Origin: Anaerolineae bacterium
Lineage (GTDB): Bacteria > Chloroflexota > Anaerolineae > Anaerolineales > Villigracilaceae
Assembly (NCBI GenBank): GCA_003130845.1
Contig: QEXW01000148.1
Coordinates: 1-54,974, forward strand
Direction of reading: 5' to 3'
Length of the DNA stretch: 54,974 nt
The stretch's first letter is position 1. Each line of letters opens with the position of its first letter. A program made the position numbers and the translations under genes. The notes below the pieces were generated by a model, which saw nothing but the letters and a program-made list of their open reading frames with translations, did no database searches and had not been told where the DNA came from. Positions 541-38,905 of this stretch are shown here, piece after piece.

Positions 541-3270
541 TTATGGGTTGCACGTTGTAATAGACGGCAGCCAATATCCCAACGTAGCACGAGGTGCAAT
601 GGTAGCCGTCTTAGTACAGCTCAAAACGCCATTCGCATTATAAAAACTAACCGTGACGTTCGCTAAATTGCTTATATGAGTATTCTGGATGTAAACCGCC
701 GAGTCATACGAGCCGCCGAAAGCGTCTTTGAACAGCATCGGCAAATACATGGTGGTGCTCGCCGCCGAAAAACCGGGGTAGGTCGTTACCTGCGCGCCGA
801 TGTGCGGGCGGCCCACCGCAACGATATTCTGGCTGGAGGTGATGACCACACCGCCTACCCAGCCATCCGGCAGGCAGCCCACGCCCGGCAGCCAGTAGCC
901 TTTGGAAGCCAGCGATGAAATGGTGTCTGTGGCGCTGCAACTCAAGTTTCCCGCGCTGTCGTAATACTGAATGGTGATGCTGGCGTTGTTCGAAGGATGG
1001 ATGTTCTGAACATAAAATGCGGCTTTGTACGTGCCTCCAGAAAACGCATTCTTGAACAACATCGGTACATAGGCTGTGGTCGAACCAGACGCAAAGCCGT
1101 TGTAGGTCGTCACCTGCGAGCCAATGTGCGGGCGCGCCACCGTGACGATGGGCTGCGAGGAGGTCACTTCCACGCCGCCGACCCAGCCACTCGAGAGACA
1201 GCCCACACTGGGCAGCCAGTAGCCCTTGGAAGCCAAGGGGGCAACTGTGTCGGTCACTGTACAACTCAAAGCACCAGATTCGTCGTAGTATTTGATGTTG
1301 ACATTGGCGGTATTCGACGCATGAACGTTTTGGATGTAAAACGCCGCGTTGTATGTGCCGCCAAAGGCGTTCTTGAAGAGCATGGGCAGGTAAGATGTGG
1401 TGCTGCCTGAGGCAAAGCCATTGTACGTCATCACTTCGCTGCCAACGTGCGGGCGGCCCACCGCAACGATGTTTTGGGTGGATGTAACCACTGCACCGCC
1501 CACCCAGCCAGTCGGCAGACAACCCACGCTGGGCAGCCAGTAGCCTTTAGAAGACCGAGCCGCAATGGTATCGGTAACCGTGCAGGTCAATGTTCCTGAG
1601 GATGTGTAATAGCTGATGGATACATACGCCGTACTGAAAGGATGGACATTTTGAACATACAGGGCCGAGTTATACGTACCGTCAAAAGATTGCTTGAACA
1701 GCATCGGCACATAGGATGTCAGGCTGCCCGACGAAAAAGCGTTATAGGACGCAACGTCTGTGCCAACATGGGGCCTCGCTACGGCAACCACCGGCTGGGA
1801 GGATGTAATCATTGCGCCACCAGACCAATTATAAAACTGGGCTGTTTTGACTGCCGCCGCGGCATCGACAATGCCCGCGCCACAGTTCGTAGTTGTGTTA
1901 CACCACGCTTCCCCAAAATCCTTGGCCGTGTTTTGCAGAATTTCAAGCACTTGGGTAGGAGTCAAACTGGGAGTGACCGACAGCATCAACGCAATCACGC
2001 CGCTTACGTGCGGGGCCGCCATGCTTGTGCCCTGATAGCCTACATAGGTATCTGCAGCCGGAACGGTTGTGCCTGTGTTGAGGGTGGACAAAATACCCGT
2101 GTCGTACGTAAAATCCCCGCCGGGTGCGCTGATTTCTAACGTCGGGCCATAATTACTGTAAGTGGATAACCAACCGTCTTCATCGGTAGCGCCAACGGTT
2201 ATCACGCCGTTACAGTTCGCAGGGCTGAAATTGGCGGCATCGGCGTTCGAGTTGCCAGCGGAAACCACCACCGACAAGCCAGCCGCCAAAGCGTCATTAA
2301 TCGCGCTCTGGGTAGTAGCGTCACAGGCCCCCAGGCCGCCCAAGCTCAGGTTCAACACTTTGGCCGGATTGGTATTGACCGGAACGCCAGAAACAGGCAA
2401 GCCCGCCGACCAGCGTATTCCATCCACAATATCCGATGTGTATCCGCCGCATCTTCCCAGAACCCGCACAGGTAGGATTTTAGCCCCCCAACTAACGCCA
2501 GCGACGCCCGTGCTGTTGTTGGTGCTGGCCCCTATCGTGCCAGCAACATGCGTACCGTGCCACGAACTGTTACGGGCCGGCGAGCCAGGGTAACACTGAC
2601 CGGATAAGGTCCAATCGCCCGGGTCGCTGGGGTTGCTATCGCGTCCGCCGCCATCGTTAGCTACGAAGGAGTCTGCAATGAAGTCATAGCCTGATACGGT
2701 TTTCCCGCTCAAATCAACGTGGTTGGTAATGCCGGTATCGAGAACAGCAACCACAACGCTGGATGAGCCGGTGGTAATCTCCCAGGCAGTTGGCAAGTTG
2801 ATGCCGTAAGTGCCAAAATAGTGCCATTGCTGGGAATAGAGCGGGTCATTCGGAACCAGGGTATGCTCAAAAATTCGGTCTGGTTCGGCATATTCGATAT
2901 CGGCGCGCTCCATCAATTTTTCTGCCACAGCCAATACCCGGTCATAAGGCTGCCTTTCCCGCAGGGAAATAACATGCGCGCTACCCGACATTTGTCGGAA
3001 ATAGGAAAGAGTCTCACCCGCGCTTTGGCTAAGCGCATCCATTAGCCTTTCGCGGTCTTCGGCGTTTTGAGTTGCCGCATCGGCAGATGGTTTGAATTTG
3101 ACGATAATCCGGTCGGTCGGAAGAGGTTCGGTTGGCGTGGGCGCGCTGCGTTCGTCTTGTGGATCAGGTACATCGGCAGGCTTAACAGCCTGGGCCGATG
3201 TAAAAGGCAACAACAATGTTAAAATAACAATGAAAATTCCAAGTGCTTTAGGGGTAATCGAGAACGACAT
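541..3270 (-). CDS. Secreted subtilisin-like serine protease (S8) with C-terminal repeats
   Basis: A 909-residue exported endopeptidase. It has a signal peptide (hydrophobic 11-26, cleavage near SAQA), a pro-region (about 50-135) and an S8 catalytic domain (about 145-475). The triad is visible as Asp178 (VAVLDTG), His238 (WHGTHVAG) and Ser416 (GTSMAAPH), with the oxyanion Asn340 (SAGN). The C-terminal half carries four copies of a module of about 90-100 residues, each starting PMLFK, with QNVH, GYWLPS.GCL and VGRPH landmarks, preceded by a half copy. The start is supported by GGAGG just upstream. Similar modules occur in the next gene upstream. The modules may bind a surface or substrate; that is inference. 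The protease assignment is firm. Confidence 0.93.
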   Translation of the reverse strand: MSFSITPKALGIFIVILTLLLPFTSAQAVKPADVPDPQDERSAPTPTEPLPTDRIIVKFKPSADAATQNAEDRERLMDALSQSAGETLSYFRQMSGSAHVISLRERQPYDRVLAVAEKLMERADIEYAEPDRIFEHTLVPNDPLYSQQWHYFGTYGINLPTAWEITTGSSSVVVAVLDTGITNHVDLSGKTVSGYDFIADSFVANDGGGRDSNPSDPGDWTLSGQCYPGSPARNSSWHGTHVAGTIGASTNNSTGVAGVSWGAKILPVRVLGRCGGYTSDIVDGIRWSAGLPVSGVPVNTNPAKVLNLSLGGLGACDATTQSAINDALAAGLSVVVSAGNSNADAANFSPANCNGVITVGATDEDGWLSTYSNYGPTLEISAPGGDFTYDTGILSTLNTGTTVPAADTYVGYQGTSMAAPHVSGVIALMLSVTPSLTPTQVLEILQNTAKDFGEAWCNTTTNCGAGIVDAAAAVKTAQFYNWSGGAMITSSQPVVAVARPHVGTDVASYNAFSSGSLTSYVPMLFKQSFDGTYNSALYVQNVHPFSTAYVSISYYTSSGTLTCTVTDTIAARSSKGYWLPSVGCLPTGWVGGAVVTSTQNIVAVGRPHVGSEVMTYNGFASGSTTSYLPMLFKNAFGGTYNAAFYIQNVHASNTANVNIKYYDESGALSCTVTDTVAPLASKGYWLPSVGCLSSGWVGGVEVTSSQPIVTVARPHIGSQVTTYNGFASGSTTAYVPMLFKNAFSGGTYKAAFYVQNIHPSNNASITIQYYDSAGNLSCSATDTISSLASKGYWLPGVGCLPDGWVGGVVITSSQNIVAVGRPHIGAQVTTYPGFSAASTTMYLPMLFKDAFGGSYDSAVYIQNTHISNLANVTVSFYNANGVLSCTKTATIAPRATLGYWLPSITTCNP

Positions 3271-3571: not shown

Positions 3572-6500
3572 TTATGGGTTTTCACTTCCGCTAGAAAAGC
3601 CGGCATAAGTTGTTACCTGCGTACCGATATGCGGACGACCAACGGTTACAATAGGCTCATTAGAGGTAATGACCACGCCGCCTACCCACCCATTCAATAA
3701 ACAAGTAACACTCGGTAGCCAATATCCTTTTGATGCCAATCGTGGGATAGTATCAGTAACCGAGCACCCCAAAGTGCCCAAGTTGTTATAGTACTTAATT
3801 GTGATGTTTGCAGATGCAGTAGAACTTAGGTTTTGGATATAGAAAGCCGATTTGTAAGTGCCACCAAATGCATTTTTGAATAACATGGGAACAAAAGAAA
3901 CAGTAGAGCCATCACTAAACCCGTTATAGGTTGTAATTTGGGTATCAATGTGTGGGCGTCCTACTAGCACTACCGAGCGATTAGACGTTACCTCTACACC
4001 GCCTATCCATCCATCCGGCAAGCAGCCCACGCTAGGCAACCAATAACCCCTAGAGGCCATCGGTGCAATCGTTTCAATTATTGTGCAATTTAATGTGCCT
4101 GCATCGTTGTAATACCGAATAGTGACATTCGCACTGTTCCAATCATCAACATTTTGTATGTAAAACGCAGATTTATAAGTGCCCCCAGTGAAAGCATTCT
4201 TGAACAACATCGGAAGATAGGAAGTAGTGTTGCCGGAAATAAACCCGTTGTAGGTCATCACTTCGCTACCCGCGTGCGGACGTCCGACAGTCACAATATC
4301 TCGATTAGACCTGACCACAGCACTTCCTACCCAATTGTCGGGCAAACTACTTAAACTAGGCAACCACCATCCTTTAGAAGCCAGTGGATTGATGGTATCG
4401 TTGACTGTGTAAATAGAAACTCCGTTTTGATCATAGAACTCCACTGAGATGTTCGCTATATTTGTGGGATCAACATTCTGTACATAAAACGCAGATTTAT
4501 AAGCACCACCAAACGCATTCTTAAAGAGCATGGGAAGATACATCTCTTTAGCGCCAGTACTAAACCCGGTGTAAGTCATAACCTCACTGGCAATATGTGG
4601 TCGTCCTACAGCAATAATCGGCTGAACCGATGTGATATACGCACCACCTACCCAACTCGCTGGTAAACAACCCATACTAGGTAACCACCATCCTTGCGAG
4701 GCCAAAGGTGCTATCATTTCTGATATCGAACAGCTCAAATTACCGTCAGTATCATAAAATTTAATGTTCACTTTTGTTGGAGTGGTGCTACTGACGTTTT
4801 GAACATAAAATGCAGAGTTATAGTTACCGCCAAAAGCATTTTTGAAGAGCATCGGCAAATAGGCTGGATTTTTAATTTCGGAGACCTGGAATATCAAAGT
4901 TCCGCCTCCCTGCCCACTAACATCGTCTTGAGCACCTTCCATAGAACCTGAAGCCGTATTGAACTCACTAATCATAAAGTAATAAGTCATACCAGCAGTT
5001 GGAGTAAACGACACATTGACGTGATCATTGGTACTACTATCAGCACAGATCACTAGCTCAGCGTCATCAATCGAATTACTGCCTGTATCTCTCCACACAG
5101 ACAAAACTGTTGTGTAATCCGTCCCAAAAGTATCTAGATAAATTTCTTTGTCACTTGTTGATGTATATTGATACCATACAGAACGCTTTCCCTTGCGAGT
5201 ATTTGTGCATGTACTGGATAAAGGCAAGGGGTCAGATGGATCATCCTCGTTTTCTATTGGTATTGCTGCGGTATCAACCGCATGGTCATACGGAAGAGAA
5301 TTTATAATTATTCGATTATCAAATAGATCATTCAAAGGGGGATCGGCAATAGTGACAAGATTAGATCTGGTAAATGAATACGCTCCTACCGAATTCTGCG
5401 CACGCACTTCAATTTTGCGTTTTCCACCTGTCAGCGTAGGGGTAGTAAACGAATAGATTTTATAATCAGGGTCGGAACCGGTCAGTGTGGCATTGTTCCA
5501 TGCACCACCATCAATGCGGTATTCGACAGATTGAATTTTATTGATGGTGACAGCCAAATTGTCAGGGGTAATGTCATAGTAATACGAATAGAAGCACTCA
5601 TCCGTAGGACGCGTCAGGCAGGTCGCAGAAGAAACAGGTGTTTCGAAGGCGCGATATTTACGCGTTCCTGCTTCGCTATAAGTCAGGGGATTATCAATTG
5701 TAGGATTAATGGGATACGGTGAAAACAGAATTGATGGACGATTATCTAACAGGTCAATAATTCCATCAGAATCGGTATCAATCCAACCTACTTGACGCAG
5801 GGTCGTACTATCTGGATTGCCGTTGCCATGATACATAAGACGGGGATTTGGCTCTCCACTTGGAGCAGCCACACCGCAATAAGCGTTCGCAATGCCCCAA
5901 TAGCCAAACTTTTTCGTGGTGCTAGAACAACCGAGAGGCTCAAACACAGGGTCAAGATATTGAAACCCAGCGCCGAACATACGCGCTACCAGTTGGGCCG
6001 TTGTCCATTCCATGTTATCTGCGCCCCGAGTACCGTTGTTGTAGGTCATGACCGCCAAAGGGCCAAAGGTACGCGCTCGTAGGTAAACACCATCCGTAAA
6101 TGCGCCGGGCGTCGTATCATTATCGTTGCTGCTGTCGATTACAAACAAAACGAAGGCCCAATCCGCATTGTTGGCGGCGCGCAAAGCAGCGGCATATTGG
6201 TATGCGGCATCGTCTGCCGAGGAACCTGCGGAATAGCCCATCGCAACCAGCGCCGTGCGAGTCCAAATTCCATAAGTCCCACTATCGTAAACGATTGGTT
6301 CGTCGGCTATCTGAATCGGCAAAATACTATCACTCGCCATATTATCCGCCATACCATCGCGCGTAATGTCTACAACAAATTCAAGCGGGGTATTGGCGGG
6401 TTTCCAACTCACCCATTTCTGCAAACCAGTCCACACTTCATCTCTAACTTTCTGTAATTCTCCCGATGTCCAGTTTTCTTGGTTCGGTATAGACACTGTG

Positions 6501-6757
6501 CTACTTTCGATGGCCACCACTCCCACCGCTACCCTGCCGGCGAGAAAAGCGCTCGTTTGACGATAAACCGGATACGAAGAGCCTTCTTCCCCTTGTCCAC
6601 CAATTTCCTGATTTTCGCTATTGACAGGCTGAAAGGATGAAGCGATAAGCGCGTTTGCTTCTGTCATCTCGAATGGGGTAAGGATTAAAACCAACATAAG
6701 CATAACGCTCAAAACGCGCCAAAACGCACCAGGATGAAAAAAAACTTGGGTGTTCAT
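3572..6757 (-). CDS. Large secreted repeat protein, function unknown
   Basis: A 1061-residue exported protein. The start is taken at 6757 because AGGAG stands seven bases upstream; an upstream ATG at 6772 has no ribosome binding site. A signal peptide is followed by a region of about 300 residues that I cannot place in a family, a calcium-loop-like stretch (DTDSDGIIDLLD), an Ig-like segment and a probable PPC-type beta-sandwich (about 475-620). Four copies of the PMLFK module follow, the same kind as in the adjacent protease. No catalytic triad is visible. The shared module and common orientation suggest that the two proteins act on the same surface or polymer. The gene appears somewhat AT-richer than its neighbours. 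Confidence 0.85.
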   Translation of the reverse strand: MNTQVFFHPGAFWRVLSVMLMLVLILTPFEMTEANALIASSFQPVNSENQEIGGQGEEGSSYPVYRQTSAFLAGRVAVGVVAIESSTVSIPNQENWTSGELQKVRDEVWTGLQKWVSWKPANTPLEFVVDITRDGMADNMASDSILPIQIADEPIVYDSGTYGIWTRTALVAMGYSAGSSADDAAYQYAAALRAANNADWAFVLFVIDSSNDNDTTPGAFTDGVYLRARTFGPLAVMTYNNGTRGADNMEWTTAQLVARMFGAGFQYLDPVFEPLGCSSTTKKFGYWGIANAYCGVAAPSGEPNPRLMYHGNGNPDSTTLRQVGWIDTDSDGIIDLLDNRPSILFSPYPINPTIDNPLTYSEAGTRKYRAFETPVSSATCLTRPTDECFYSYYYDITPDNLAVTINKIQSVEYRIDGGAWNNATLTGSDPDYKIYSFTTPTLTGGKRKIEVRAQNSVGAYSFTRSNLVTIADPPLNDLFDNRIIINSLPYDHAVDTAAIPIENEDDPSDPLPLSSTCTNTRKGKRSVWYQYTSTSDKEIYLDTFGTDYTTVLSVWRDTGSNSIDDAELVICADSSTNDHVNVSFTPTAGMTYYFMISEFNTASGSMEGAQDDVSGQGGGTLIFQVSEIKNPAYLPMLFKNAFGGNYNSAFYVQNVSSTTPTKVNIKFYDTDGNLSCSISEMIAPLASQGWWLPSMGCLPASWVGGAYITSVQPIIAVGRPHIASEVMTYTGFSTGAKEMYLPMLFKNAFGGAYKSAFYVQNVDPTNIANISVEFYDQNGVSIYTVNDTINPLASKGWWLPSLSSLPDNWVGSAVVRSNRDIVTVGRPHAGSEVMTYNGFISGNTTSYLPMLFKNAFTGGTYKSAFYIQNVDDWNSANVTIRYYNDAGTLNCTIIETIAPMASRGYWLPSVGCLPDGWIGGVEVTSNRSVVLVGRPHIDTQITTYNGFSDGSTVSFVPMLFKNAFGGTYKSAFYIQNLSSTASANITIKYYNNLGTLGCSVTDTIPRLASKGYWLPSVTCLLNGWVGGVVITSNEPIVTVGRPHIGTQVTTYAGFSSGSENP

Positions 6758-6962
6758 CGAGATACTCCTCATAAATTAGCTTTTTGGGGCAATAAAGGTT
6801 AAGTGATTACAGTCGTAAATAAACTGGATTGCTAGAAAGAGCAACATAGCAACAGAGCAGACAATTTTTTAATCAAACAAACGCTACCGATATGATTATA
6901 CCCGTACACAAACACCGAAGGATTTACAAAAGGGACAGGCACCCTCCATTAGTACCTTTTTG

Positions 6963-8597
6963 CTACCTATAACCCATGCGCCTACCCCATAACAAAAGCA
7001 TTACACCGACAATCAAGAGTAGAATTCCCAAGCAAAGCCAAGCGAAGCGACCTGTTCTGAAGAAAGTGTCGGAAGCCGACGGTGTGATTGTGAAGGTTGG
7101 CGTAAGTGTAGAAGTAGGGGAGACGCCCCAAGAAGCTATCAAAGACGGGGACGGTGTAAGTGATGCAATCAAAGCATTGGACGGGTTAGAAGAAGTGGTT
7201 GCTCCTACAGTAAATGTTGCAGTGGCGACCACAGGAAATGGAGAAGAAGGGTTGGGATGAGGCGCATTTCCCGTTGGAGAGGAGTATTGGGTTGGCGTCG
7301 AGGTTGGAATGGCCAGCAAAAGCGCAGCATCCAGCTGAATCAGGCCGTATCCGGTAAAAACATCCCAGCCAGGCGCATCGAGATCTAATGCCGAATTTTC
7401 CAGGTACACACGTGCCTGCCCGGGGCCAATTCCTGGCATACTGAGCAAAAGCGCCAGCGCGCCAGAAACATGTGGAGCAGACATCGAAGTGCCACTCAAA
7501 GTAGTGTATCCCCCACCTAAAGATAGGCTGTAAATGCTCGCACCCGGCGCCGAGAGGTCAAGTTCTGGTCCAAAAGCAGAACTCGGCACGCGCAGGTTAG
7601 CAGCGTTGGTGTTAGCCACCGCAATCACAGCCGCATAGCGCGCCGGATATAAGAGAGCGCCCCCCGTATTCCCGGCCGCTGCCACCAACAAAACACCTTG
7701 CGAGGCGGCGTAATTGACAGCGTTTTCTAAGGTGAGCGATGGGCTGATTCCGCCCAGGCTTAGGTTGATAATTTGTGCGCCTTGGTCAGTCGCCCAAATA
7801 ATACCGGCGGCTACATTAGAGTAGGTACCAGTATTGGAAGCATTCAAGACCTTAACCGGTAAAATGCGCGCATTCCACGACACACCGGCTACGCCTACGC
7901 CATTATTGCTCATGGCAGCGGCAATGCCAGCGACATGCGTGCCATGGCCGTTATCATCCTGAGGGTCTGTATCCCCATTGACAAAGTCATAACCGGCCAA
8001 AATTTTGGGCGCAAGTTCAGGATGAGTCTGGTCTACACCGGTATCTACAATGGCAATCGTGACCAAATGTGACCCGGTCGTTATCTCCCACCCTTGTGGA
8101 GCACGGATATTGACCAGTGCATATTGAAAGGGAAAGCCAGGGTCGTTTGGGATGACATCTTGCCCTGTGACAGTGTAGTCCGGTTCGACATACGATACCC
8201 CATCGAGAGAAGTCAGCTCGCGTATTTTGTCCTGAAGGTCTTCCACCGGAACTTCTATCCGATAAACGTTCAGGCGCCCAAGCCCAGCATCATACACCGG
8301 CATGTCAATTTGAGATTTCAAATCACGCAAAGTATTGCCAGGGGCCAAGCCAACCAGAAGGGATGCCATGTCTTGCGGAGACGGGCTAGAAACCTGCTCC
8401 TGGTCTGTTTCAGAAGGCGTAGGGGAAAGTGTTTCGGTTTCAGAAAACGCTGAAGGCGAGGGAGTAAAAGTTAAGGGTGTACTCTCATCGGCGCCGATTG
8501 CTGCCTGGGCGTGTTGTGTACCCCAAGACAAGCTGAGCATGGCTCCCGCCAAGCCGAGCAAAAACAGAGTTCGCCAATCCACACGCACACAGGCCAT
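6963..8597 (-). CDS. Membrane-anchored subtilisin-like serine protease (S8)
   Basis: A 544-residue protease that is exported and apparently held in the membrane. Residues 10-32 form a signal segment. Residues 40-75 are a Ser/Thr/Pro-rich linker, then comes an inhibitor-like pro-region (about 75-145). The S8 domain follows with Asp185 (AIVDTG), His218 (GHGTHVAG), Asn310 (AAGN) and Ser371 (GTSMSAPH). After the catalytic domain is another low-complexity Thr/Pro/Ser linker (about 435-510). A single hydrophobic helix (about 516-536) with an Arg-rich end (GRRMGYR) serves as a C-terminal anchor. It lacks the PMLFK modules of the protease at 541-3270. The start ATG has no clear ribosome binding site. 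Confidence 0.92.
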   Translation of the reverse strand: MACVRVDWRTLFLLGLAGAMLSLSWGTQHAQAAIGADESTPLTFTPSPSAFSETETLSPTPSETDQEQVSSPSPQDMASLLVGLAPGNTLRDLKSQIDMPVYDAGLGRLNVYRIEVPVEDLQDKIRELTSLDGVSYVEPDYTVTGQDVIPNDPGFPFQYALVNIRAPQGWEITTGSHLVTIAIVDTGVDQTHPELAPKILAGYDFVNGDTDPQDDNGHGTHVAGIAAAMSNNGVGVAGVSWNARILPVKVLNASNTGTYSNVAAGIIWATDQGAQIINLSLGGISPSLTLENAVNYAASQGVLLVAAAGNTGGALLYPARYAAVIAVANTNAANLRVPSSAFGPELDLSAPGASIYSLSLGGGYTTLSGTSMSAPHVSGALALLLSMPGIGPGQARVYLENSALDLDAPGWDVFTGYGLIQLDAALLLAIPTSTPTQYSSPTGNAPHPNPSSPFPVVATATFTVGATTSSNPSNALIASLTPSPSLIASWGVSPTSTLTPTFTITPSASDTFFRTGRFAWLCLGILLLIVGVMLLLWGRRMGYR

Positions 8598-29031: not shown

Positions 29032-29425
29032 CGGTTCCTCCTTGAATTGGAATGCTTGATAAAAAGTGCAACCAACTATCTCAAACTACAAAAACCGACT
29101 CCAAAGTACCTGAGCGGTTTTGTCTTCTACACTCAGACGCTTTGCACGAAAGCGGTCAACCAATCGAGAAACATTAACGTGCGGTAAACTCTGGCCTGCA
29201 CTCCAGACGATTATCACACTTCCCATGTGACAAAGAAAGTGACAATCATCCTGCTTATTTCATTTCACTCATCCTCTAAACAAGAGAGGAATGACCTTTA
29301 TAATCCTCAATACAATCACGGCATAGCGAAGGCTACGCAAAAATTTTACTCGAAACGTTTTCTTTTTGCCTTCATCAAAAAGAGTGATTACACATCACCA
29401 ACGCCCCACGCCAAAGGAGGTGCGC
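29032..29425. promoter_or_regulatory. Divergent promoter region between sdhC and the Rieske gene
   Basis: A 394-base gap with no credible gene; the short plus-strand frames through it look random. TATAAT at 29299-29304 is a possible plus-strand -10 element, without a clear -35. A dyad TCACA-N7-TGTGA occupies 29214-29230, and TGTGACAAAGAAAGTGACA gives a partial direct repeat. These may be regulator sites coordinating complex II and the bc-type complex; the assignments are speculative. Confidence 0.4.
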
Positions 29426-29929
29426 ATGTCAGGTTCAAACCGATTTAGCCGGCGTGACTTCATCAAAGTCACAACCGGCGCTATCGGCGGTATCATCGCC
29501 GCCGGAGTTGGCATCCCATCCATCGGCTACCTGCTTGCCCCGGCACTGCGTCAAGACCAAGCCGGCAAGTCGGTTGTTGTCGCCAATCTGAGCGATATTC
29601 CGATTGGAATTCCCTACCCCTTCTCATTCACCATCACCCGCATCAACGGCTGGGAACGCACTGCCAATGTCTTTGGCGGCTTCATCTTGCGCAAATCAGA
29701 AGACCCGCAAGACTTGCTTGTACTCTCCAGCCGCTGCACGCACCTTTCGTGCCGAGTCAATTGGGACGAACAAGCAGGCGGCTTTCTCTGCCCATGCCAC
29801 GATGCCATGTTCGACAAAGAGGGCAAAGTCGTTCACGGGCCGCCGCCTGAACCGCTCGGACATTTCGAATACGAGATAGATGACGCGGGCAACATCACCA
29901 TTATCCCCATCGAACGCAAGGGAGAATAA
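29426..29929 (+). CDS. Rieske iron-sulfur protein of a cytochrome b6/bc-type complex
   Basis: About 167 residues; AAAGGAGGT eight bases upstream of 29426 fixes the start (the frame is open further upstream). The N-terminus has a twin-arginine motif (FSRRDFIKV) and a hydrophobic helix, so it is exported folded and membrane-anchored. The [2Fe-2S] ligands are in CTHLSC and CPCHDAMFD, the two Rieske boxes with two Cys and two His. It passes electrons from quinol to cytochrome c. Three bases separate it from the cytochrome b gene. Confidence 0.94.
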   Translation: MSGSNRFSRRDFIKVTTGAIGGIIAAGVGIPSIGYLLAPALRQDQAGKSVVVANLSDIPIGIPYPFSFTITRINGWERTANVFGGFILRKSEDPQDLLVLSSRCTHLSCRVNWDEQAGGFLCPCHDAMFDKEGKVVHGPPPEPLGHFEYEIDDAGNITIIPIERKGE

Positions 29930-29932
29930 ACC

Positions 29933-30601
29933 ATGCAGAATTTTTGGAAAAACGCCTTGCAATGGCTCGATGAACGTCTGGGACTGAACGAACTCTACCA
30001 AAATCTGCTCGACCGTCCCGAACCGCTCGGCAACTGGTGGAACACCCTCGGCTCGGCCAGCCTGTTCCTGTTTCTCTTGCAGGTTGCCACCGGCATCTTC
30101 CTCACCGTCTATTACAACCCCTCGCCCGACCACGCCTACGACTCCATCCAATACATCATGAACGAAGTGGCCTTTGGCTGGCTCATTCGCGGCATTCACC
30201 ACTGGGGCGCCTCGCTTATGGTGCTGGTGGTCATTATTCACATGCTGCGCACCTTTGTCACCGCTTCTTACAAGTACCCTCGCGAACTGACCTGGCTCGT
30301 AGGCGTTGGCCTGCTCTTGCTCACGCTCGGCATGGGCTTCACCGGTTACCTCTTGCCTTGGCACCAGATGGCATACTGGGCCACAACGGTCGGCACGCAA
30401 ATTGCCGGAAGCGTGCCATTTATTGGGGAATTCATCTTAAGAGCGCTGCGCGGCGGCCCCGACTTAAGCGCCCTGACCTTGCAGCGCTTCTTTGCTGCTC
30501 ACATTTGGATTTTGCCCGCCCTGATGTTCGCACTCATTGGCTTACACCTGTATCTAATCATTAAACACGGCGAGTCGCACTTCCCGGATAAGGAAGATTA
30601 A
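29933..30601 (+). CDS. Cytochrome b6-type subunit (N-terminal half of cytochrome b)
   Basis: A 222-residue membrane protein carrying both haems b of the quinol-oxidising complex. The four His ligands sit in two helices: the first pair in IHHWGASLMVLVVIIHML with 13 residues between them, the second in AHIWILPALMFALIGLHL with 14. The 14-residue gap matches cytochrome b6 rather than mitochondrial-type b. Length (about 220) also fits the split b6 form. The missing C-terminal helices are supplied by the next gene. Confidence 0.94.
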   Translation: MQNFWKNALQWLDERLGLNELYQNLLDRPEPLGNWWNTLGSASLFLFLLQVATGIFLTVYYNPSPDHAYDSIQYIMNEVAFGWLIRGIHHWGASLMVLVVIIHMLRTFVTASYKYPRELTWLVGVGLLLLTLGMGFTGYLLPWHQMAYWATTVGTQIAGSVPFIGEFILRALRGGPDLSALTLQRFFAAHIWILPALMFALIGLHLYLIIKHGESHFPDKED

Positions 30602-30612
30602 GGAACACAGTC

Positions 30613-31995
30613 ATGAACGAAGACGTCAAACAGCAAATTCACGAAAAATACGAGCGTGAACTCCAGCGCGGTGAACGCTTTTGGCCTGATAGCATCTTCA
30701 AAGATGCCATCATGGCCTTAGCATTGTTTATTGTCCTCATCTTATTGGCCACATTCGTTGGCGTTCATGATTCTCCCAAAGCCGACCCATCCGATACGAG
30801 TTACATTCCTCGCCCAGAATGGTATTTCTTGTTTTTATTCAAATTTCTGGCGCTGTATGGGCAAATTCCAGTCCTGGGCAAAATCGAATGGATAGCCACT
30901 GCGCTTATCCCTGGTATTGCCATCGGCATACTCACCCTGCTGCCATTCATTGATAAATCCCCCCGCCGCTATTACGCCAAACGAGCACTGCCGCTTGGTA
31001 TTATGGGCATTCTGGTTTGGGGCATGGTGTGGTTAACCCTGTTGGCAGATTATCCCACCGTTGCCCCTGATGGCTCATCTACACCAGGCATCTTGCAAGC
31101 CATCGCCGGCATTGTCATCCCTCTCTTGGCTTACATTGCATTTACTGTGATGGCATACACCCTAAAAGAGCGCGCCCCGCATGGGATTCTGCTCACTGCC
31201 CTGGGCGCCGGTGCGCTCATGGCAGGGTTCAGCCTGCTTTCGATGATACTGTACCCCTTGCCGGCCAAAGAAACAGCCGAACACCCGACCAGCCTGGTAG
31301 ACCGCATCACGGCCGGACAAGATTTGTATTCCATCCACTGCTTGGAATGTCACGGGGAAGACGGTGCGGTTAAGGTTATCGAAGGCGTTGCCGGCCTAGA
31401 AGGGACAGTGATTAGCCCGATTAGCAGTCGTGATGTGTTGTACACCCTCAACGACGCCTCATTGGGCGAAATTATCGCCTACGGACGCCCTGATTTGGGC
31501 ATGCCACCCTTTGGCAAAGCCTATAACCCAGAAGGTCTCACGCGCGCCGAAATTGACTACATCATCGCTTTCATGCGTCACACCTGGGATGACCGCTACG
31601 AAATGCCCAAAATTCAACCTCTTTTCCCGCCACTCGCGCCCAACGAAGTGCCATCTTACGAAGTTCACATTACACCTATTGTTAAGCGCTACTGCCTATC
31701 ATGTCACCGCCCCGGCAAAGATAGCAACGACTACTTCATGGACACCTACGAAAACATTCTCAACAGCGGTGATAACGGAGACATGAACGTGATAGCCGGT
31801 GACGAGAATAGCTTCCTGCTGCAAGTCATTCAGGGGAAACCCATTCTCAACCCGGATGGCAGCGAAGCAATTGGCGTCATGCCACCCAGCGGCACACTCA
31901 AACCAGATGTTATTGAAGTCTTCCGCCGCTGGGTGTTGATGGGTATGCCACGCACCGCCGAAGAGGCTGCAACACTTACCTGGCCTACGCCCTAA
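30613..31995 (+). CDS. Subunit IV / dihaem cytochrome c fusion of the bc-type complex
   Basis: A 460-residue fusion. The N-terminal part (about 1-110) matches cytochrome b subunit IV, with the quinol-site PEWYF motif in IPRPEWYFLFLFKFLAL (about 66-82). Further helices follow (to about 215). The C-terminal 240 residues form an exported cytochrome c region with two haem sites: CLECH (Cys243) and CLSCH (Cys361). The two haem domains would relay electrons from the Rieske protein. A strong terminator follows at 32020-32053. The combined subunit is longer than plain subunit IV (about 160). Confidence 0.92.
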   Translation: MNEDVKQQIHEKYERELQRGERFWPDSIFKDAIMALALFIVLILLATFVGVHDSPKADPSDTSYIPRPEWYFLFLFKFLALYGQIPVLGKIEWIATALIPGIAIGILTLLPFIDKSPRRYYAKRALPLGIMGILVWGMVWLTLLADYPTVAPDGSSTPGILQAIAGIVIPLLAYIAFTVMAYTLKERAPHGILLTALGAGALMAGFSLLSMILYPLPAKETAEHPTSLVDRITAGQDLYSIHCLECHGEDGAVKVIEGVAGLEGTVISPISSRDVLYTLNDASLGEIIAYGRPDLGMPPFGKAYNPEGLTRAEIDYIIAFMRHTWDDRYEMPKIQPLFPPLAPNEVPSYEVHITPIVKRYCLSCHRPGKDSNDYFMDTYENILNSGDNGDMNVIAGDENSFLLQVIQGKPILNPDGSEAIGVMPPSGTLKPDVIEVFRRWVLMGMPRTAEEAATLTWPTP

Positions 31996-32053: not shown

Positions 32054-32181
32054 GAGTAAATCGGTCTTACATAACCGTTGGTTTTTCAGATCCGCTTTTT
32101 ATTGCGCATAAACTATAATATAAAGAGGCGATTTTGCCAGTATTGTATCTGCTCTTATCTGCCTATCTGCCAGGAAACAAA

Positions 32182-33579
32182 ATGAACTCGCTCAAGAATG
32201 TTGTACTTATGTTTTTGCTTGTGCTTGGCTTGCCAGGTTGCGCGAGCATGGGTCCATCTGGCGCAACGCCCACAATAGGTATTGATGGACGTTTCATCGA
32301 ATTCTATAACTTAATGGGCGGGGAACGTACATTAGGCAAGGCGCTTGGTCCGGCCTTTCCACAAGATGGAAAAATATCGCAATACACTGAAAACGTGCTG
32401 ATGGTCTATGACGAAAGCAAACCGGTCGGAGAACGCTTTAACTTTGCCCCCTTAGGCAACACCTTTGGGCTGAGTGATCCGCCCTTACCCATTCCTGAAA
32501 ACCAATCAGAAGTACGCTACCTCAATGGACATATTCTCTCCGCAGACTTCGCAGCGCTCTTCGACTCTTTAGGCGGTGTGCGCTTTGTTGGCTATCCGCT
32601 GACCGAGGCGCGCTGGAATCCAGAAAAAAGCCGGTATGAACAATATTTCGAAAAAATGGGCTTTTATCGGCGCGAAGGAGAACAGCAGGTGTACCTGTTG
32701 CCATACGGACACATAGATTGTCAGCGCCAGCCCTCTCAAGTAGGATGCGTAGCATCTATCTCGGAAGCAATTATCGAGCCCCAGCACTTGCCACAACCTT
32801 TTCTTCCAATTGTTGAACGCTTGGGACAAGATTTTACCGGCGTTCCACTTTCACAACCCTATCTGGCGCCGGATGGAATGCTAGAACAAATCTATGAAAA
32901 TATTGTCTTGGCCGTCCAACCCGGCAATCTGCGCACCATCCACTTACGTCAATTACCCCTCCTTGTCGGTTACCAAAGAGCGCCACTTGTCCCCTTGCTC
33001 AATGACCCACTCATGGTCTTCATGGTATTAGACCCGGCAAGCGGCTTAGGACACAACGTCCCCCGGCCTTTTCTCACCTACATCGCTGCGCACGGCGGGC
33101 AGGAATTGGCCGGCGCACCAATTGGTGAACTGTTCGAGCAAAACGGTGTGCGGCGGCAATGTTTTGAGAACTACTGCCTGGATTACGACCCCACTGCACC
33201 GCCCGGAACAGAAATTCGCCCAACCCCGCTAGGATTGCTGTACCTGCGCGGACAAAATTACCAGCCGGCTATGCTCAGTTTGCTGGTCTGGGAAGCGCAT
33301 TCCATCCTTGACGTAGGGCAAGAACAAGTACTTGGTGTGCGTGTCCTGAACGAAACCGCAAACCAGCCCATACAAAACATCGAACCAAAAATAGAAATCA
33401 CCCTGCCTAACGGAACAGTCAAAACGATGGTCTTTCCTCCCACTTCCAACGCCGGCAATACTTATCTGAAAGTGAACCTGCCCGGCCTAAAGTCCGGCGA
33501 CTTGGTGACTTACAAGGTGTGCGCCTCGCAGCCGGGCGGTGCGCCCGTGTGCATTTCCGATAGTTGGTTGGTGCGTTAG
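32182..33579 (+). CDS. Predicted lipoprotein, function unknown
   Basis: About 465 residues. The start is set at 32182 (AGGA upstream; the frame opens at 32134) because it yields a clean lipoprotein signal with lipobox LPGC. I do not recognise a family. The body has repeated, roughly 80-residue units of the type GGxRxxGyPLtEar...EQyFEnm..y with aromatic and Gly-rich turns, seen about four times. The C-terminal part (about 380-465) looks like an immunoglobulin-type beta-sandwich. TATAAT at 32114-32119 may be its -10 element. It ends two bases before the convergent LysM gene. Confidence 0.8.
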   Translation: MNSLKNVVLMFLLVLGLPGCASMGPSGATPTIGIDGRFIEFYNLMGGERTLGKALGPAFPQDGKISQYTENVLMVYDESKPVGERFNFAPLGNTFGLSDPPLPIPENQSEVRYLNGHILSADFAALFDSLGGVRFVGYPLTEARWNPEKSRYEQYFEKMGFYRREGEQQVYLLPYGHIDCQRQPSQVGCVASISEAIIEPQHLPQPFLPIVERLGQDFTGVPLSQPYLAPDGMLEQIYENIVLAVQPGNLRTIHLRQLPLLVGYQRAPLVPLLNDPLMVFMVLDPASGLGHNVPRPFLTYIAAHGGQELAGAPIGELFEQNGVRRQCFENYCLDYDPTAPPGTEIRPTPLGLLYLRGQNYQPAMLSLLVWEAHSILDVGQEQVLGVRVLNETANQPIQNIEPKIEITLPNGTVKTMVFPPTSNAGNTYLKVNLPGLKSGDLVTYKVCASQPGGAPVCISDSWLVR

Positions 33580-34663: not shown

Positions 34664-36400
34664 TTACTGCTTCACAACCGGCAATTCCGCTGCAATCCAG
34701 GCATTCATGCCACCGGCCAGGTTGCGAACGTTGGTATAACCCAAGGCTTGCAAATACACCAGCGCTAACGAACCGCGATGCCCCGATTTGCACAGGATGA
34801 CAATCGGCGTGGCCTTGTCAGTAGGCAACTCGGCCAAGCGAGCAGGCAGTTCGTTGATGGGGATGTTGAGCGCGCCTTCGATATAGCCATCTTTGGTCAA
34901 TTCTTCGGCTGTTCGCACATCCAAAATGAAAGGTTTCTTTTCGGAGGTGAGTTCCGCGTTCAAATCAGGCGCTTTGACGGTGAAATATCCCTCAGGCAGC
35001 GCGCTTAGGTAAGCATCTAGACCGGCCAAACGCGTCTTATCTACATTCGGAGTAGCACCGGTAGCAGTGGCAGCCGCTGGCTTGCCAGCCTCAAGCGGCA
35101 GTTCGGCTTTCTTCCAACCATTGATACCCCCACCCAGGTTAACCACATCTTGGTAACCGAGCAAGCGCAATGCCATCATCACCATCGCGCCGCGATGTCC
35201 TGAAGCGCAGGTGACGACAATTTTCTGGTCCTGAGCAGGCAATTTATCCAGATTCTTCAGCACTTCGCGCACCGGAATGTTGACCGTTCCGGCAATGTAA
35301 CCAGTGGATTCAACTTCGGCGGCTTCGCGCACATCCAAGATAAACGGCGGTTTATCGGCGAGCAGCTCATTCAATTTGGCAGCGCTGATGGTGTAATACC
35401 CTTGGTCAGCCGGTAGGTTGGTCAGGAAATCGGCATACGTCGCAGGCCAATCCACCCAACCAACAACCGGTAATTTGGCAGCTTTCCAAGCATTTAGGCC
35501 ACCAGCCAGGTTGCGGACGTTGGTATAGCCCATCAGCCGCAGGCCCATCATGGCAATCGAACCGCGATGCCCGGAGACACAGTAAATGACAATCGGCGTC
35601 TCTTTTGCGGGCAATTTTTCAACGCTGGTGAAGAGTTCCTGCAATGGAATGTTTAGCGCATCGGCCAGATGACCGTCCTTCTCGAACTCGGCAGCAGTGC
35701 GCACATCCAACAGCACGGGAGCTTTCTCGGCCAGCGCTTCGTTGAGTTTATCGGCCTTGATAGCGTAGTAATCATCAGGCATTTCAGCAAAGAAGCCCTT
35801 CAGCATATCAAACAGGGCTTTATCGGCCACAATCGGCTGGCTTTGGCTGGCGGCTTCGGCGGGTTTGCCGCTTTCGAGGGGCAGGTTGGCTTTTTTCCAA
35901 GCGTTTAGGCCGCCGGCCAAGTTACGAACATTGGTGTAGCCCAACAGTTTGAGAGCGGCCATTGCCAAACCACCGCGATGCCCTGAAGCACAGTAGATGA
36001 CGATGGGGGCATCTAAGCCGGGCAGTTTGTCCAGGTTATCAAGCAATTGGCGCACAGGAATGTTGACCGCGCCCTTCAAATAACCATCTTTTTCTACTTC
36101 AGCGGCTTCGCGCACATCGAGCAGGAAAGGTGGTTTCTCGGCCAATTCTTCGTTTAGTTTGACCGCCTGGATGGTACCATAGCCCTTATCGGCAGGCAGA
36201 TTGGCAGCCAATTCGGCAAACAGTGCTTGCGCATCCGGGGCCGGCTCAGGAGTGGCAGTCGGCGGCACAGGCGTAGGGGGAACTTCGGTTGGCGGGGCCA
36301 CAACCGGTTCTTGGGTGGCAACCGCTGGAGCGCCACACGCGCTCAGCACCAAACTAGCAAGCACAAGCAGGGAAAAAAGGGAGTACAGTTTACGGGTCAT
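34664..36400 (-). CDS. Lipoprotein with four tandem rhodanese domains
   Basis: A 578-residue exported lipoprotein (lipobox LVLSAC) with a Pro/Thr linker and four tandem rhodanese domains of about 105-110 residues (about 75-178, 200-310, 325-435 and 465-575). Each has the catalytic loop with its Cys: CASGHR, CVSGHR, CASGHR and CKSGHR. Rhodaneses carry sulfane sulfur as persulfide, so four active-site Cys could transfer or bind sulfur outside the cytoplasm. Strong sequence similarity among units points to internal duplication. It follows the multihaem cytochrome by 32 bases on the same strand and is closed by a terminator. A role in sulfur metabolism is inferred. Confidence 0.93.
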   Translation of the reverse strand: MTRKLYSLFSLLVLASLVLSACGAPAVATQEPVVAPPTEVPPTPVPPTATPEPAPDAQALFAELAANLPADKGYGTIQAVKLNEELAEKPPFLLDVREAAEVEKDGYLKGAVNIPVRQLLDNLDKLPGLDAPIVIYCASGHRGGLAMAALKLLGYTNVRNLAGGLNAWKKANLPLESGKPAEAASQSQPIVADKALFDMLKGFFAEMPDDYYAIKADKLNEALAEKAPVLLDVRTAAEFEKDGHLADALNIPLQELFTSVEKLPAKETPIVIYCVSGHRGSIAMMGLRLMGYTNVRNLAGGLNAWKAAKLPVVGWVDWPATYADFLTNLPADQGYYTISAAKLNELLADKPPFILDVREAAEVESTGYIAGTVNIPVREVLKNLDKLPAQDQKIVVTCASGHRGAMVMMALRLLGYQDVVNLGGGINGWKKAELPLEAGKPAAATATGATPNVDKTRLAGLDAYLSALPEGYFTVKAPDLNAELTSEKKPFILDVRTAEELTKDGYIEGALNIPINELPARLAELPTDKATPIVILCKSGHRGSLALVYLQALGYTNVRNLAGGMNAWIAAELPVVKQ

Positions 36401-36432: not shown

Positions 36433-37572
36433 TTATGGCGCGCCAATGGCTGGCGGCACTTCGGGAACAATCACAGGCTGGTTGGCCTGGAGTTCATCAG
36501 GCTTGATTTTGTCAGCGGTTAGAAAGATTTTCTCGTTACCATGACAGGCGTTGCAAGAGGCATTTTGCGGGGTCTTGCGCTGGATGTTGTGTGGTGTAGC
36601 GTATGTCCAGGTCGGCAAGGCATCAAAATTTGGTAAAAGATTTTCGCCGTAGTATTGGTAAGAAGTCGGCGCAACTGGCACATGTCGCAAGACAACATAC
36701 TGATAGGGGCGATGATAATTCGGCTGTGGGTTGAGACCGATGAAGAAACCCATGTAACTCCGCTCGGTCTTGAAGAAGGGTTTACCGGTCTTTTGGCTGA
36801 TGGCCACATGGCAGCCATCGCAACTCATGTACGAAACCGAATGACAGACCTGGCAAGCCAATTTGTTGCCATGCAAAATATGCTGAGTCACCGGGTCGCC
36901 GGCTTTGCCAACCGTTTCGTGACAGGTTTCGCAGGCCGGGCTTTGCACACCCGAATAGCGGTTCGTCACCTGAAAAGCGGGCTGACTGGTATCATGGCAT
37001 TGTGTGCAAACTGCTTGCGAGTTGTGCATTTCCGCTCCACCATGACACGAGACACAATTCATGCGTCCTTGACGGAAGTGCACATCGCCAGGAATGTCTT
37101 CGTTTTTACCAAGATACTCGTTGCCTACGCGGCTGCCATGACAAGCAGTGCAGTTACGGCTCATCGAGGGGGTTTTTTGGACGACATGCCCGGAAATGAA
37201 GCCACCTCCCACCGAACCCGGCTGGCTGATGTGACAATCGCCACAGGAGGTATGGCAAGAGGCACAGTGATTGCCAAACATCTTTTCAAGCGCCGGCTGA
37301 TTTTCGGGCGTACTGCGTGCATTGAGGCGGTCCCAATACCCTGCCAGCGAAACGTGCAGGCTTTTCTCGAAATGCTCGCTCTGGTCACCATGACAGGTTG
37401 CGCAAGTCTCACCCTTGCTGCTTGGGTCGGCAACCAAACCGGCGTGGGCAGTTTCCATATCTGGCGATTGTTGACCGCCGTGACAATAGGTGCAAGCCAT
37501 TTGGCCGTGCGCTGTGGCTAGGAACTCTTGCCGCGCAACAAACACTTTTTCCCATGGCTCCAACGGAGCCAC
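36433..37572 (-). CDS. Multihaem cytochrome c, C-terminal part after an in-frame TGA
   Basis: A 379-residue stretch with eleven CXXCH haem-binding sites (CTYCH, CATCH, CASCH, CGDCH, CTACH, CVSCH, CTQCH, CETCH, CQVCH, CDGCH and CNACH). It has no signal peptide of its own. The frame continues upstream through one TGA (37582-37584) into the signal-peptide-bearing segment at 37582-37827, which holds a twelfth CXXCH. The start here would be GTG with GAGGGG before it, but the product would not be exported and so could not acquire haem. Most likely one gene with a nonsense mutation, sequencing error or readthrough. It precedes the rhodanese gene by 32 bases. Confidence 0.85.
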   Translation of the reverse strand: MAPLEPWEKVFVARQEFLATAHGQMACTYCHGGQQSPDMETAHAGLVADPSSKGETCATCHGDQSEHFEKSLHVSLAGYWDRLNARSTPENQPALEKMFGNHCASCHTSCGDCHISQPGSVGGGFISGHVVQKTPSMSRNCTACHGSRVGNEYLGKNEDIPGDVHFRQGRMNCVSCHGGAEMHNSQAVCTQCHDTSQPAFQVTNRYSGVQSPACETCHETVGKAGDPVTQHILHGNKLACQVCHSVSYMSCDGCHVAISQKTGKPFFKTERSYMGFFIGLNPQPNYHRPYQYVVLRHVPVAPTSYQYYGENLLPNFDALPTWTYATPHNIQRKTPQNASCNACHGNEKIFLTADKIKPDELQANQPVIVPEVPPAIGAP

Positions 37573-37581
37573 ATCGCCCCC

Positions 37582-37827
37582 TCAGCCAACCCCTTCGGAT
37601 TCTGAGCCATGCCCCGCGTCTTCTTCCTTGGCGAGAGCAACCAACTTATCCTTGTCGGTGTGACAATCCAGGCAATAATCTACGACTGGAGAGGGTTGCG
37701 GCAAAAGGGTTGGAGTGGCAGGGGGAACAGCAGACTCTTCCGTGACGATTGGCGTCTGTTGTGCAGAACAAGCAGCCAAAAACCAGGCAGCCAACACAAA
37801 GTAGATAAGAACCCTGAGTTTCACCAT
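37582..37827 (-). CDS. Multihaem cytochrome c, N-terminal part (signal, lipobox, first haem)
   Basis: The 81-residue front part of the same cytochrome. The ATG at 37827 is preceded by AAAGGATGG. A hydrophobic signal ends in LAAC (lipobox), then a Thr/Pro linker and one haem site CLDCH. It stops at TGA (37582-37584), after which the same frame reads Gly-Gly-Asp-Val-Ala-Pro and on into the eleven-haem part. Joined, the protein would be 464 codons with twelve haem sites. Selenocysteine insertion is unlikely. A divergent LysR gene and a dyad at 37844-37861 lie upstream. Confidence 0.8.
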   Translation of the reverse strand: MVKLRVLIYFVLAAWFLAACSAQQTPIVTEESAVPPATPTLLPQPSPVVDYCLDCHTDKDKLVALAKEEDAGHGSESEGVG

Positions 37828-37969: not shown

Positions 37970-38905
37970 ATGCTCAACTTAGATGCATTGCGTGTCTTTC
38001 TCACTGTAGCTGAACACGGTAACTTCAGTGAAGCCGGACGGCGGCTGCACCTTACTCAGCCGGCTGTTAGTCAGACCATTCAAGGACTAGAAAAACAATT
38101 AGGCATTCAGTTGTTCTTACGGCAGGGACGAAGTGTACAACTGACCGAAGCCGGGCAAGTGCTCGTCTCAATGGGGCGTGAATTACTGGCAGCCGCACAG
38201 CGCATTGAACAAACGATGCTTTCGTTGCACGGAGAAGTTGTTGGGGAAATGTCTATCGGCTGTTCGACCGCCTCGGGCAAATATCTACTCCCCGGCTTAA
38301 TTGCCCGCTTTCGGCGTGAATACCCGCAGGTCCGCATCAATGTACTCGTCACCAGCCGTGATTCGGTCATGAACAAACTGCTAGCTGGCGAGGTCGCATT
38401 GGGCGTTTCGAGCAAGCTAATTGAGCATTACGACTTGGAGTATCAAGATTTCTATGAGGATGACGTGATTCTGGTCGTACCGGCGGGTCATCGTTGGGCG
38501 CAATACCGCAAAATTTACCCCGATGACTTACTGGATGAGCCCATCATCCTACGCGAGGAATCCGCTGGTACACGCGAAGTGCTGCGCGATGGCCTGATAA
38601 AGTGTGATATTTCCCCCGATATGCTGAATGTGGCTATGGTGCTCGGAAACGCCGAAGCGATTGGCATGGCCGTAGAAGAAGGGCTGGGCGTCGCCTTCAT
38701 CTCACGTCTGGCCGCAACGCGTGGCATTGAATTAGGAAGATTGGTGGAAATCGAAGTGCAGGGAATGAAACTCACCCGCAATCTTTACATGGTGCGCAAT
38801 CGTCGCCAAATACTCACGCGTATGCAAGTAGAGTTTTGGGAATTCGTTAAGAGAGTGCGAACGTATTCAATCAACCCAAGCGGATTAAGCTTAGCGCCTG
38901 GGTAA
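37970..38905 (+). CDS. LysR-family transcriptional regulator
   Basis: A 311-residue regulator. The N-terminal winged helix-turn-helix (about 1-60; LDALRVFLTVAEHGNFSEAGRRLHLTQPAVSQTIQGLEKQLG) precedes a periplasmic-binding-type effector domain (about 90-295). TATAAT at 37957-37962 is a possible -10. It is divergent from the multihaem cytochrome and rhodanese genes and is likely to regulate them together with itself, as LysR proteins often do. The CysL/CbbR-like subgroup is suggested by overall similarity only. The 232-base stretch after it (38906-39137) shows no gene or terminator. Confidence 0.93.
   Translation: MLNLDALRVFLTVAEHGNFSEAGRRLHLTQPAVSQTIQGLEKQLGIQLFLRQGRSVQLTEAGQVLVSMGRELLAAAQRIEQTMLSLHGEVVGEMSIGCSTASGKYLLPGLIARFRREYPQVRINVLVTSRDSVMNKLLAGEVALGVSSKLIEHYDLEYQDFYEDDVILVVPAGHRWAQYRKIYPDDLLDEPIILREESAGTREVLRDGLIKCDISPDMLNVAMVLGNAEAIGMAVEEGLGVAFISRLAATRGIELGRLVEIEVQGMKLTRNLYMVRNRRQILTRMQVEFWEFVKRVRTYSINPSGLSLAPG

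Follow-up and report, generated by a model that had tools for sequence, protein, structure and literature searches.

Organization of the locus

The window, that is, the whole stretch of DNA that was analysed, comprises 54,974 nucleotides of contig QEXW01000148.1 from the assembly GCA_003130845.1 of an Anaerolineae bacterium. On its minus strand, a frame running from 37827 to 36433, with the start ATG at 37825-37827 and a TAA as its terminator, spans 465 codons when the stop is counted, and encodes a predicted product of 464 residues in which the single internal TGA would be read as selenocysteine (Sec) at residue 82. The features considered in this paper are as follows.

36433 to 37827, minus strand: whole putatively recoded gene, encoding an exported lipoprotein, a 12-haem selenocytochrome (frame interrupted by one TGA only; full-length alignment of homologues)
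37585 to 37827, minus strand: N-terminal segment with signal peptide, lipobox Cys20 and haem motif 1 (CLDCH, residue 52) (signal and lipobox judged by eye)
37582 to 37584, minus strand: TGA codon, putative Sec at residue 82 in the motif GVG-U-GGDVAPLEPWEK (conserved in relatives)
37555 to 37571, minus strand: candidate SECIS hairpin, with arms 37565-37571 and 37555-37561 and the loop GUU at 37562-37564 (fit to the SECIS model, minimum free energy, pairing counts and frozen codons)
36436 to 37581, minus strand: body of the cytochrome with haem motifs 2-12 (motif count; residues 104-464 align with 1sp3)
34664 to 36400, minus strand: partner, an exported lipoprotein with four rhodanese domains and a CxSGHR loop in each (PF00581 in four stretches; sequence)
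37970 to 38905, plus strand: divergent LysR-family regulator of the selenium metabolism-associated type (NF040786, 267.8 bits against a cut-off of 250)

The hydrophobic signal of the cytochrome ends, as judged by eye, in a lipobox-like LAAC, the last residue of which is Cys20. In the translation of the minus strand, codon 82 is TGA, followed by GGDVAPLEPWEK and then by eleven CXXCH motifs, which together with the one before the TGA make twelve. A first-pass annotation of this DNA had described a twelve-haem cytochrome whose signal and first haem lie in the same frame as haems 2-12 and are split from them by an in-frame TGA only, and translation bears out both statements. The place of the split was also given correctly, but the N-terminal piece is 37585-37827, since the TGA itself occupies 37582-37584; the listed open reading frame (ORF) 36433-37572 is only the part after a GTG at 37570-37572, and the frame is already open from 37581. 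We conclude from translation and from the full-length homologues that the two ORFs are one gene.

Conservation of the in-frame TGA

A profile search with a threshold of E 1e-30 detected the cytochrome family in 63 of the 301 genomes of the order, 58 of which carry a TGA inside the match. The five members of the order lacking it are the full-length Sec-less homologues of G192, G051, G205 and G190 and a distant partial match in G043. When 41 genomes were searched with read-through of stops, nine true homologues were found, counting that of the host, and every one of them contains a single TGA; four more genomes gave weak matches only. In a sample of 400 genomes from the phylum, 13 matched, ten of which had been seen before; the new matches, G419 and G320 (two copies), lie beyond the order and contain the TGA, and G327 gave a distant partial match without it. 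The in-frame TGA is also present in the homologue of Anoxynatronum buryatiense (Bacillota), which shows 36% identity; in the class of this organism, only 1 of 291 genomes matched, namely A. buryatiense itself, and the other 290 gave no match.

The contexts that were read, 50 distinct ones (one from Bacillota), are a subset of the TGA-bearing genomes. All of them have the TGA at the same point of the protein, preceded by Gly in 50 of 50 and followed by Gly in 49 and by Ala in one; the TGA of Anoxynatronum was shifted by one column by the aligner. From the 52 rows listed, L051, L069, L080 and L081 were excluded from the alignment A3, L051 for having the same TGA context as L050 and the other three for a terminator of their own inside the match. 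Also not in A3 are L082, in which the gene lies in two frames, and the distant partial homologues L074 (G327) and L083 (G043). In G116, G099 and G204, the additional TAA or TAG in the count is simply where the gene itself terminates. Comparison of these contexts shows the TGA to be a conserved sense position.

The first-pass annotation had considered a recent nonsense mutation or an assembly error, and a single stop in an otherwise open frame of a genome in 159 contigs would be in keeping with these readings. However, the same TGA recurs in 58 of the 63 genomes of the order that have the family, as well as in assemblies made separately for members of other classes and of Bacillota, and it is accompanied by a conserved hairpin and by frozen codons (see below). 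Because the TGA is thus conserved in independent assemblies across many genera and two phyla, both explanations are ruled out, and we assign them a negligible probability.

Two observations on the family as a whole may be added here. L074 and L083 match at about 130 bits and are without the Sec region; they possibly form a sister family of the cytochrome body. In addition, L007 (G010:C126), from the host's genus, groups in the tree with copies from other genera (G076 and G219), apart from the host copy, a placement for which horizontal transfer is a possible explanation.

A SECIS-type hairpin downstream of the TGA

According to the available text of PMC13188914, the bacterial SECIS model has a loop of 3-9 nt with a G in the first two positions, a stem of 4-16 bp, a spacing of 16-37 nt, a minimum free energy (MFE) of at most -7.5 and the loop pattern N1-G-[G/U]-N-N2. 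A hairpin within the 27 bases 3' of the TGA agrees with this model: positions 14-20 pair with positions 24-30 around a GUU loop, which starts 16-17 nt after the UGA. The homologue of Anoxynatronum (L018) was excluded from the 49-row SECIS counts for its one-codon shift; the remaining 49 contexts align without gaps, and L018 itself folds into a bulged form with the loop AGUU 16 nt after the UGA. The MFE of the 42 nt after the UGA ranges from -9.9 to -17.6 kcal/mol over the 50 contexts, and the hairpin is present in the MFE fold of 46 of them, the exceptions being L007, L063 and L089, which fold otherwise, and the bulged form of Anoxynatronum. The window hairpin, with an MFE of -12.9 kcal/mol, is modestly stable compared with shuffled sequences (z -1.8), 10 of 200 shuffles folding equally well.

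On the alignment, 90.7% of the cells of the stem are paired, versus 31-52% when the pairing is slid along it, and the covariation score of 0.086 was reached by none of 500 shuffles; a pair changed on both sides occurs in 292 of 500 shuffles too. Conservation does not extend to the outermost pair (14-30), which is mostly unpaired. At pair 16-28, 5 of 37 distinct sequences have C-G in place of G-C, a swap that replaces Ala by Pro together with Pro by Ala or Val; as the five sequences sit near the base of the tree, it may be a single compensatory event. In the Sec-less homologue L077, another pair of the stem is swapped on both sides. Furthermore, when 160 conserved columns are ranked by how little they change synonymously, codons 4-8 after the TGA take ranks 1-5. 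These results establish, by comparative analysis, that the TGA is followed by a conserved predicted hairpin of the SECIS type.

In codons 1-3 after the TGA, by contrast with these frozen codons, the third base is variable and Gly-Gly is retained; therefore this stretch appears to be translated, which argues against a restart at the GTG. Such a restart would make the locus two coupled genes, in which a one-haem lipoprotein stops at the TGA and translation begins again ten bases on, after AGGGGG. The restart codon that the first-pass annotation pointed out does exist (37570-37572), a G-rich stretch precedes it, and codon 4 is GTG in 45 of the 49 contexts and CTG or TTG in another two. But it overlaps the base of the SECIS stem, to which its conservation can be attributed, and GTA and GCG are also found at its position. 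Attachment of haem c occurs outside the cytoplasm, and the product of a restart would, as had been noted, have no signal. Two separate genes with a second signal peptide, which the first-pass annotation had named as evidence against a single gene, were not seen in the loci read, and in four relatives the gene is one uninterrupted frame. We therefore consider two coupled genes highly improbable, and a single gene remains the preferred reading.

Selenocysteine machinery

The host genome (G000, in which the window is contig C132) encodes a tRNA-Sec with the anticodon tca (78.3 bits), SelA (531.8 bits) and SelB (357 bits), all over their cut-offs. The profile search of the host genome found nothing over the cut-off for SelD, with a best score of 67.4 bits versus 125. 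At the end of another contig there is a SelD-like piece of 61 residues (L123, G000:C30:3415-3597) with a TGA of its own (CAGUASKL), which is likely the host's SelD and probably another selenoprotein. SelD often has Sec in its N-terminal loop, as stated in the available text of PMC13188914.

Among the 43 TGA-bearing genomes tested, tRNA-Sec was over the gathering score in 40 (in G031 it is cut by the contig end); none was found in three TGA-bearing genomes, which are 84, 82 and 67% complete. This co-occurrence is a weak test, because most relatives without the cytochrome gene also have tRNA-Sec. Programmed readthrough, which the first-pass annotation had listed, is correct as to kind, but the hairpin, tRNA-Sec, SelA and SelB point to the insertion of Sec instead of leaky readthrough. 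On this evidence, which is that of sequence comparison, SelB and tRNA-Sec(UCA) would insert Sec at residue 82 to yield one exported, lipid-anchored 12-haem selenoprotein, with a probability of roughly 95%.

Homologues without selenocysteine

The position of Sec is occupied by Trp in G192 and G051 and by Phe in G205, and the loop is deleted in G190; a Cys form was not found among these four full-length homologues, which keep 11 or 12 haem motifs. Most selenoprotein families have a Cys homologue, which is usual though not required. According to the tree, Sec was lost at least three times; no tRNA-Sec was found in G192, and the other three genomes have one.

The Trp in G192 and G051 is what would also be expected if the TGA were read as Trp, be it by a near-cognate tRNA at this stop or throughout the genome. 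However, TGG occurs in only these 2 full-length members versus 58 genomes with TGA, both TGG members adjoin a lost or decayed rhodanese gene, and the full apparatus for Sec insertion is accompanied by a SECIS-type hairpin. A changed genetic code was rejected, TGA being the ordinary stop of 11 of the 32 window ORFs checked. Decoding as Trp by either route is very unlikely, and Sec remains the preferred residue.

The rhodanese partner and the gene neighbourhood

A BLAST comparison found a rhodanese ORF adjoining the cytochrome gene, on the same strand and within 4 kb, in all 36 distinct loci of Sec-bearing relatives with flanks; L017, a copy of L103, was left out of this count, the ORF is cut by the contig end in L085 and L089, and at one locus it is fused to the cytochrome. 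At the Sec-less loci, the rhodanese is absent from three of four and reduced to a remnant of 94 residues in the fourth (Fisher's exact p 4e-4 for the association of Sec with rhodanese, with the remnant counted as present and relatedness ignored). Under stricter clustering, 31 of the 40 loci have the rhodanese. The genome G320 has a frame of 829 residues (L115, G320:C164, 3-2489) that joins the Sec cytochrome to two rhodanese domains; the start of this frame is cut by the contig end, and it ends in a C-terminal stretch resembling a membrane anchor. The second copy of this genome, L075, is unfused and has a CxxU motif.

LysR regulators of one cluster are encoded in 34 of 40 loci, the window included. 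In Anoxynatronum, the order of the genes is rhodanese, Sec cytochrome, ResB and CcsB, the last two (L018 7173-9259) serving haem c maturation. Of 40 loci, 15, among them all four Sec-less ones, have genes nearby that were named by eye as Fe-S and NrfD-like. The recurrent set of an Fe-S protein, an NrfD-like membrane protein and another multihaem cytochrome was observed at L077, L078, L079, L086, L088, L089, L091, L092, L101, L102, L110 and L111, Sec-less members among them; the additional cytochrome of L091 belongs to PF13435.

Elsewhere in the window, 29366-31995 encodes a Rieske protein, a cytochrome b and a cytochrome b C-terminal/cytochrome c protein. These genes were tried as a part of the module and rejected: the cytochrome b resembles ExtP at 224.2 bits against a cut-off of 290, and at the loci of relatives that were compared, nothing next to the cytochrome matched these genes at more than 60 bits. 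Between them and the rhodanese region lies an ORF of 481 residues (32134-33579) that neither Pfam nor NCBIfam matched at E 0.001. At the start of the window (541-3270, 3572-6772 and 6963-8597), two peptidases of the subtilase family (PF00082) flank a protein of 1066 residues that is without a Pfam match at E 1e-8.

Predicted structure of the cytochrome

The AlphaFold2 model of the cytochrome has a mean pLDDT of 82.3 and a pTM of 0.76. Residues 71-90, including Sec82, have a pLDDT of 58-69 and are flanked by well-predicted stretches, which would fit a mobile Sec loop. The octahaem cytochrome 1sp3 gave the best structural alignment (VIA-align; Z 9.9, rmsd 4.3 and 20% identity over 263 residues); the match covers model residues 104-464, with haem 1 and the Sec loop outside it. 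Hydroxylamine oxidoreductases come next in the structural alignment, with Z 4.5 or less. Foldseek returned nothing at E 0.001 or below for the model, and a sequence search of the PDB gave one weak match, 28pb_A (E 6e-6). Beyond the signal and the lipobox, no free Cys is present in 43 of the 45 Sec-bearing rows of A3, the exceptions being L052, with an altered haem motif, and L075, with its CxxU; Sec would thus usually need a partner outside the chain, or a haem.

Comparison with known systems

The system working most alike is ExtH with ExtKL of Geobacter sulfurreducens, in which, according to the available text of PMC6148476 and PMC5877670, a TGA-containing multihaem cytochrome stands beside an exported rhodanese lipoprotein. 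ExtKL is described by the model NF040886, of the selenite/tellurite reduction operon, and the pairing of an in-frame-TGA multihaem cytochrome with an exported rhodanese lipoprotein is common to both systems; the layout and the profile differ. ExtKL has five N-terminal haem motifs and none after the TGA, and the text of PMC1914089 that was available reports no SECIS found in 2007, whereas the window cytochrome has one haem before Sec, eleven after it and a clear SECIS-type element. In 11 family members, NF040886 found nothing at E up to 10, and it was over its cut-off in none of 10 genomes; two weak matches, of 23.3 bits in G320 and 21.8 bits in G190, lie elsewhere in those genomes.

The best fold match, 1sp3, belongs to the tetrathionate reductase family octahaem cytochromes (TIGR04315), of which Table 1 of PMC13188914 has one GenBank-annotated Sec member. 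Unlike these eight-haem proteins, the window cytochrome has twelve CXXCH motifs and an N-terminal Sec loop, and a TIGR04315 search of 11 family members, with E up to 10, found nothing. A true TIGR04315 protein, without TGA, is encoded by a separate gene in 6 of the 10 genomes tried, including the host (G000:C12:41257-42507, 543.7 bits); the Sec cytochromes of these six genomes have no TIGR04315 score except for 23.1 bits in G010. More generally, no model of NCBIfam release 20 was over its cut-off for the window cytochrome or 10 relatives. The identity of some members as ExtM, ExtN, ExtO, DmsE-type or GSU2203-type proteins was rejected, the NCBIfam matches being far under the cut-off; they look like the result of shared CXXCH repeats.

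The window rhodanese passes the model NF041203 of rhodanese-related (seleno)proteins (150.6 versus 115 bits), and thus resembles them as a selenium-linked rhodanese. Unlike the selenoproteins of that family it keeps its Cys, and Sec is in the neighbouring cytochrome. It is far under the cut-off of TsoB (NF045694; 78.4 versus 805 bits).

Table 1 of the 2026 catalogue (PMC13188914) has ExtKL and one TIGR04315 protein as Sec cytochromes and nothing with the present layout, so the selenoprotein family described here looks to be absent from that table. Nor is a 12-haem Sec cytochrome described in the available text of PMC5877670, PMC9012536, PMC12013277, PMC1914089, PMC11976967, PMC6148476, PMC9312934 and PMC13188914, although an earlier mention is possible, for example in supplements.

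Proposed function

Taken as a whole, the explanation that we prefer, a Sec cytochrome for which a rhodanese-linked chalcogen reductase is proposed as the function, is very probable; the functional proposal itself is more tentative. In most members, Sec would be the one free chalcogenol left in the mature protein. It would sit on the loop between haems 1 and 2, where the active-site Cys of the rhodanese may hand over to Sec82 a group of either sulfane sulfur or selenium. The Sec-bound group would then be reduced and released by electrons arriving through the haem chain, and the cytochrome and the rhodanese together would form an outward-facing chalcogen reductase acting on selenite, polysulfide, thiosulfate or tetrathionate, possibly under the control of the selenium-associated LysR regulator. 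We put forward this mechanism as plausible, somewhat short of even odds. Selenite or tellurite is favoured by the analogy with the ext cluster of Geobacter (PMC5877670 and PMC6148476, as far as their available text goes) and by the type of the LysR regulator; the rhodanese and the fold match speak for polysulfide, thiosulfate or tetrathionate.

Alternatively, Sec might be real yet belong to a general electron carrier, in which it could be a redox switch, a ligand to a haem or metal, or a protective residue, with the rhodanese acting nearby but separately. The four Sec-less homologues retain 11 or 12 haem motifs and have genes near them that by eye are Fe-S and NrfD-like, which indicates that the cytochrome can serve without Sec; moreover, the fold matched by 1sp3 does not take in the Sec loop, and one copy (L075) has a CxxU motif. 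On the other hand, Sec and rhodanese have been gained or lost together, and the two proteins are fused in G320. A carrier of this kind is likewise a serious candidate that falls a little below an even chance.

Implications

Pipelines that take TGA as a stop split this gene into a truncated lipoprotein and an unexported cytochrome. Multihaem cytochromes would gain another Sec layout, with a clear SECIS-type element such as was not found for ExtKL in 2007 (PMC1914089, in its available text). This element freezes synonymous sites in the cytochrome gene, and a single base-pair swap in it alters two amino acids together; RNA structure thus appears to steer the protein sequence. Furthermore, at least three losses of Sec, with no Cys form seen on the way and the rhodanese decaying alongside, make it possible to test what Sec does in a haem protein.

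More speculatively, these proteins could form an unrecognised family of reductases for chalcogens, either respiratory or detoxifying, that is common in Anaerolineae and extends to at least one member of Bacillota. The exported rhodanese would load sulfane sulfur or selenium onto a mobile Sec arm, the haems would reduce this cargo extracellularly, and the cytochromes would turn back into plain electron carriers when Sec was lost with the rhodanese; we hold this broader picture to be possible rather than probable. If it is true, selenium would be used here to reduce selenium or sulfur, in parallel to ExtH-ExtKL of Geobacter.
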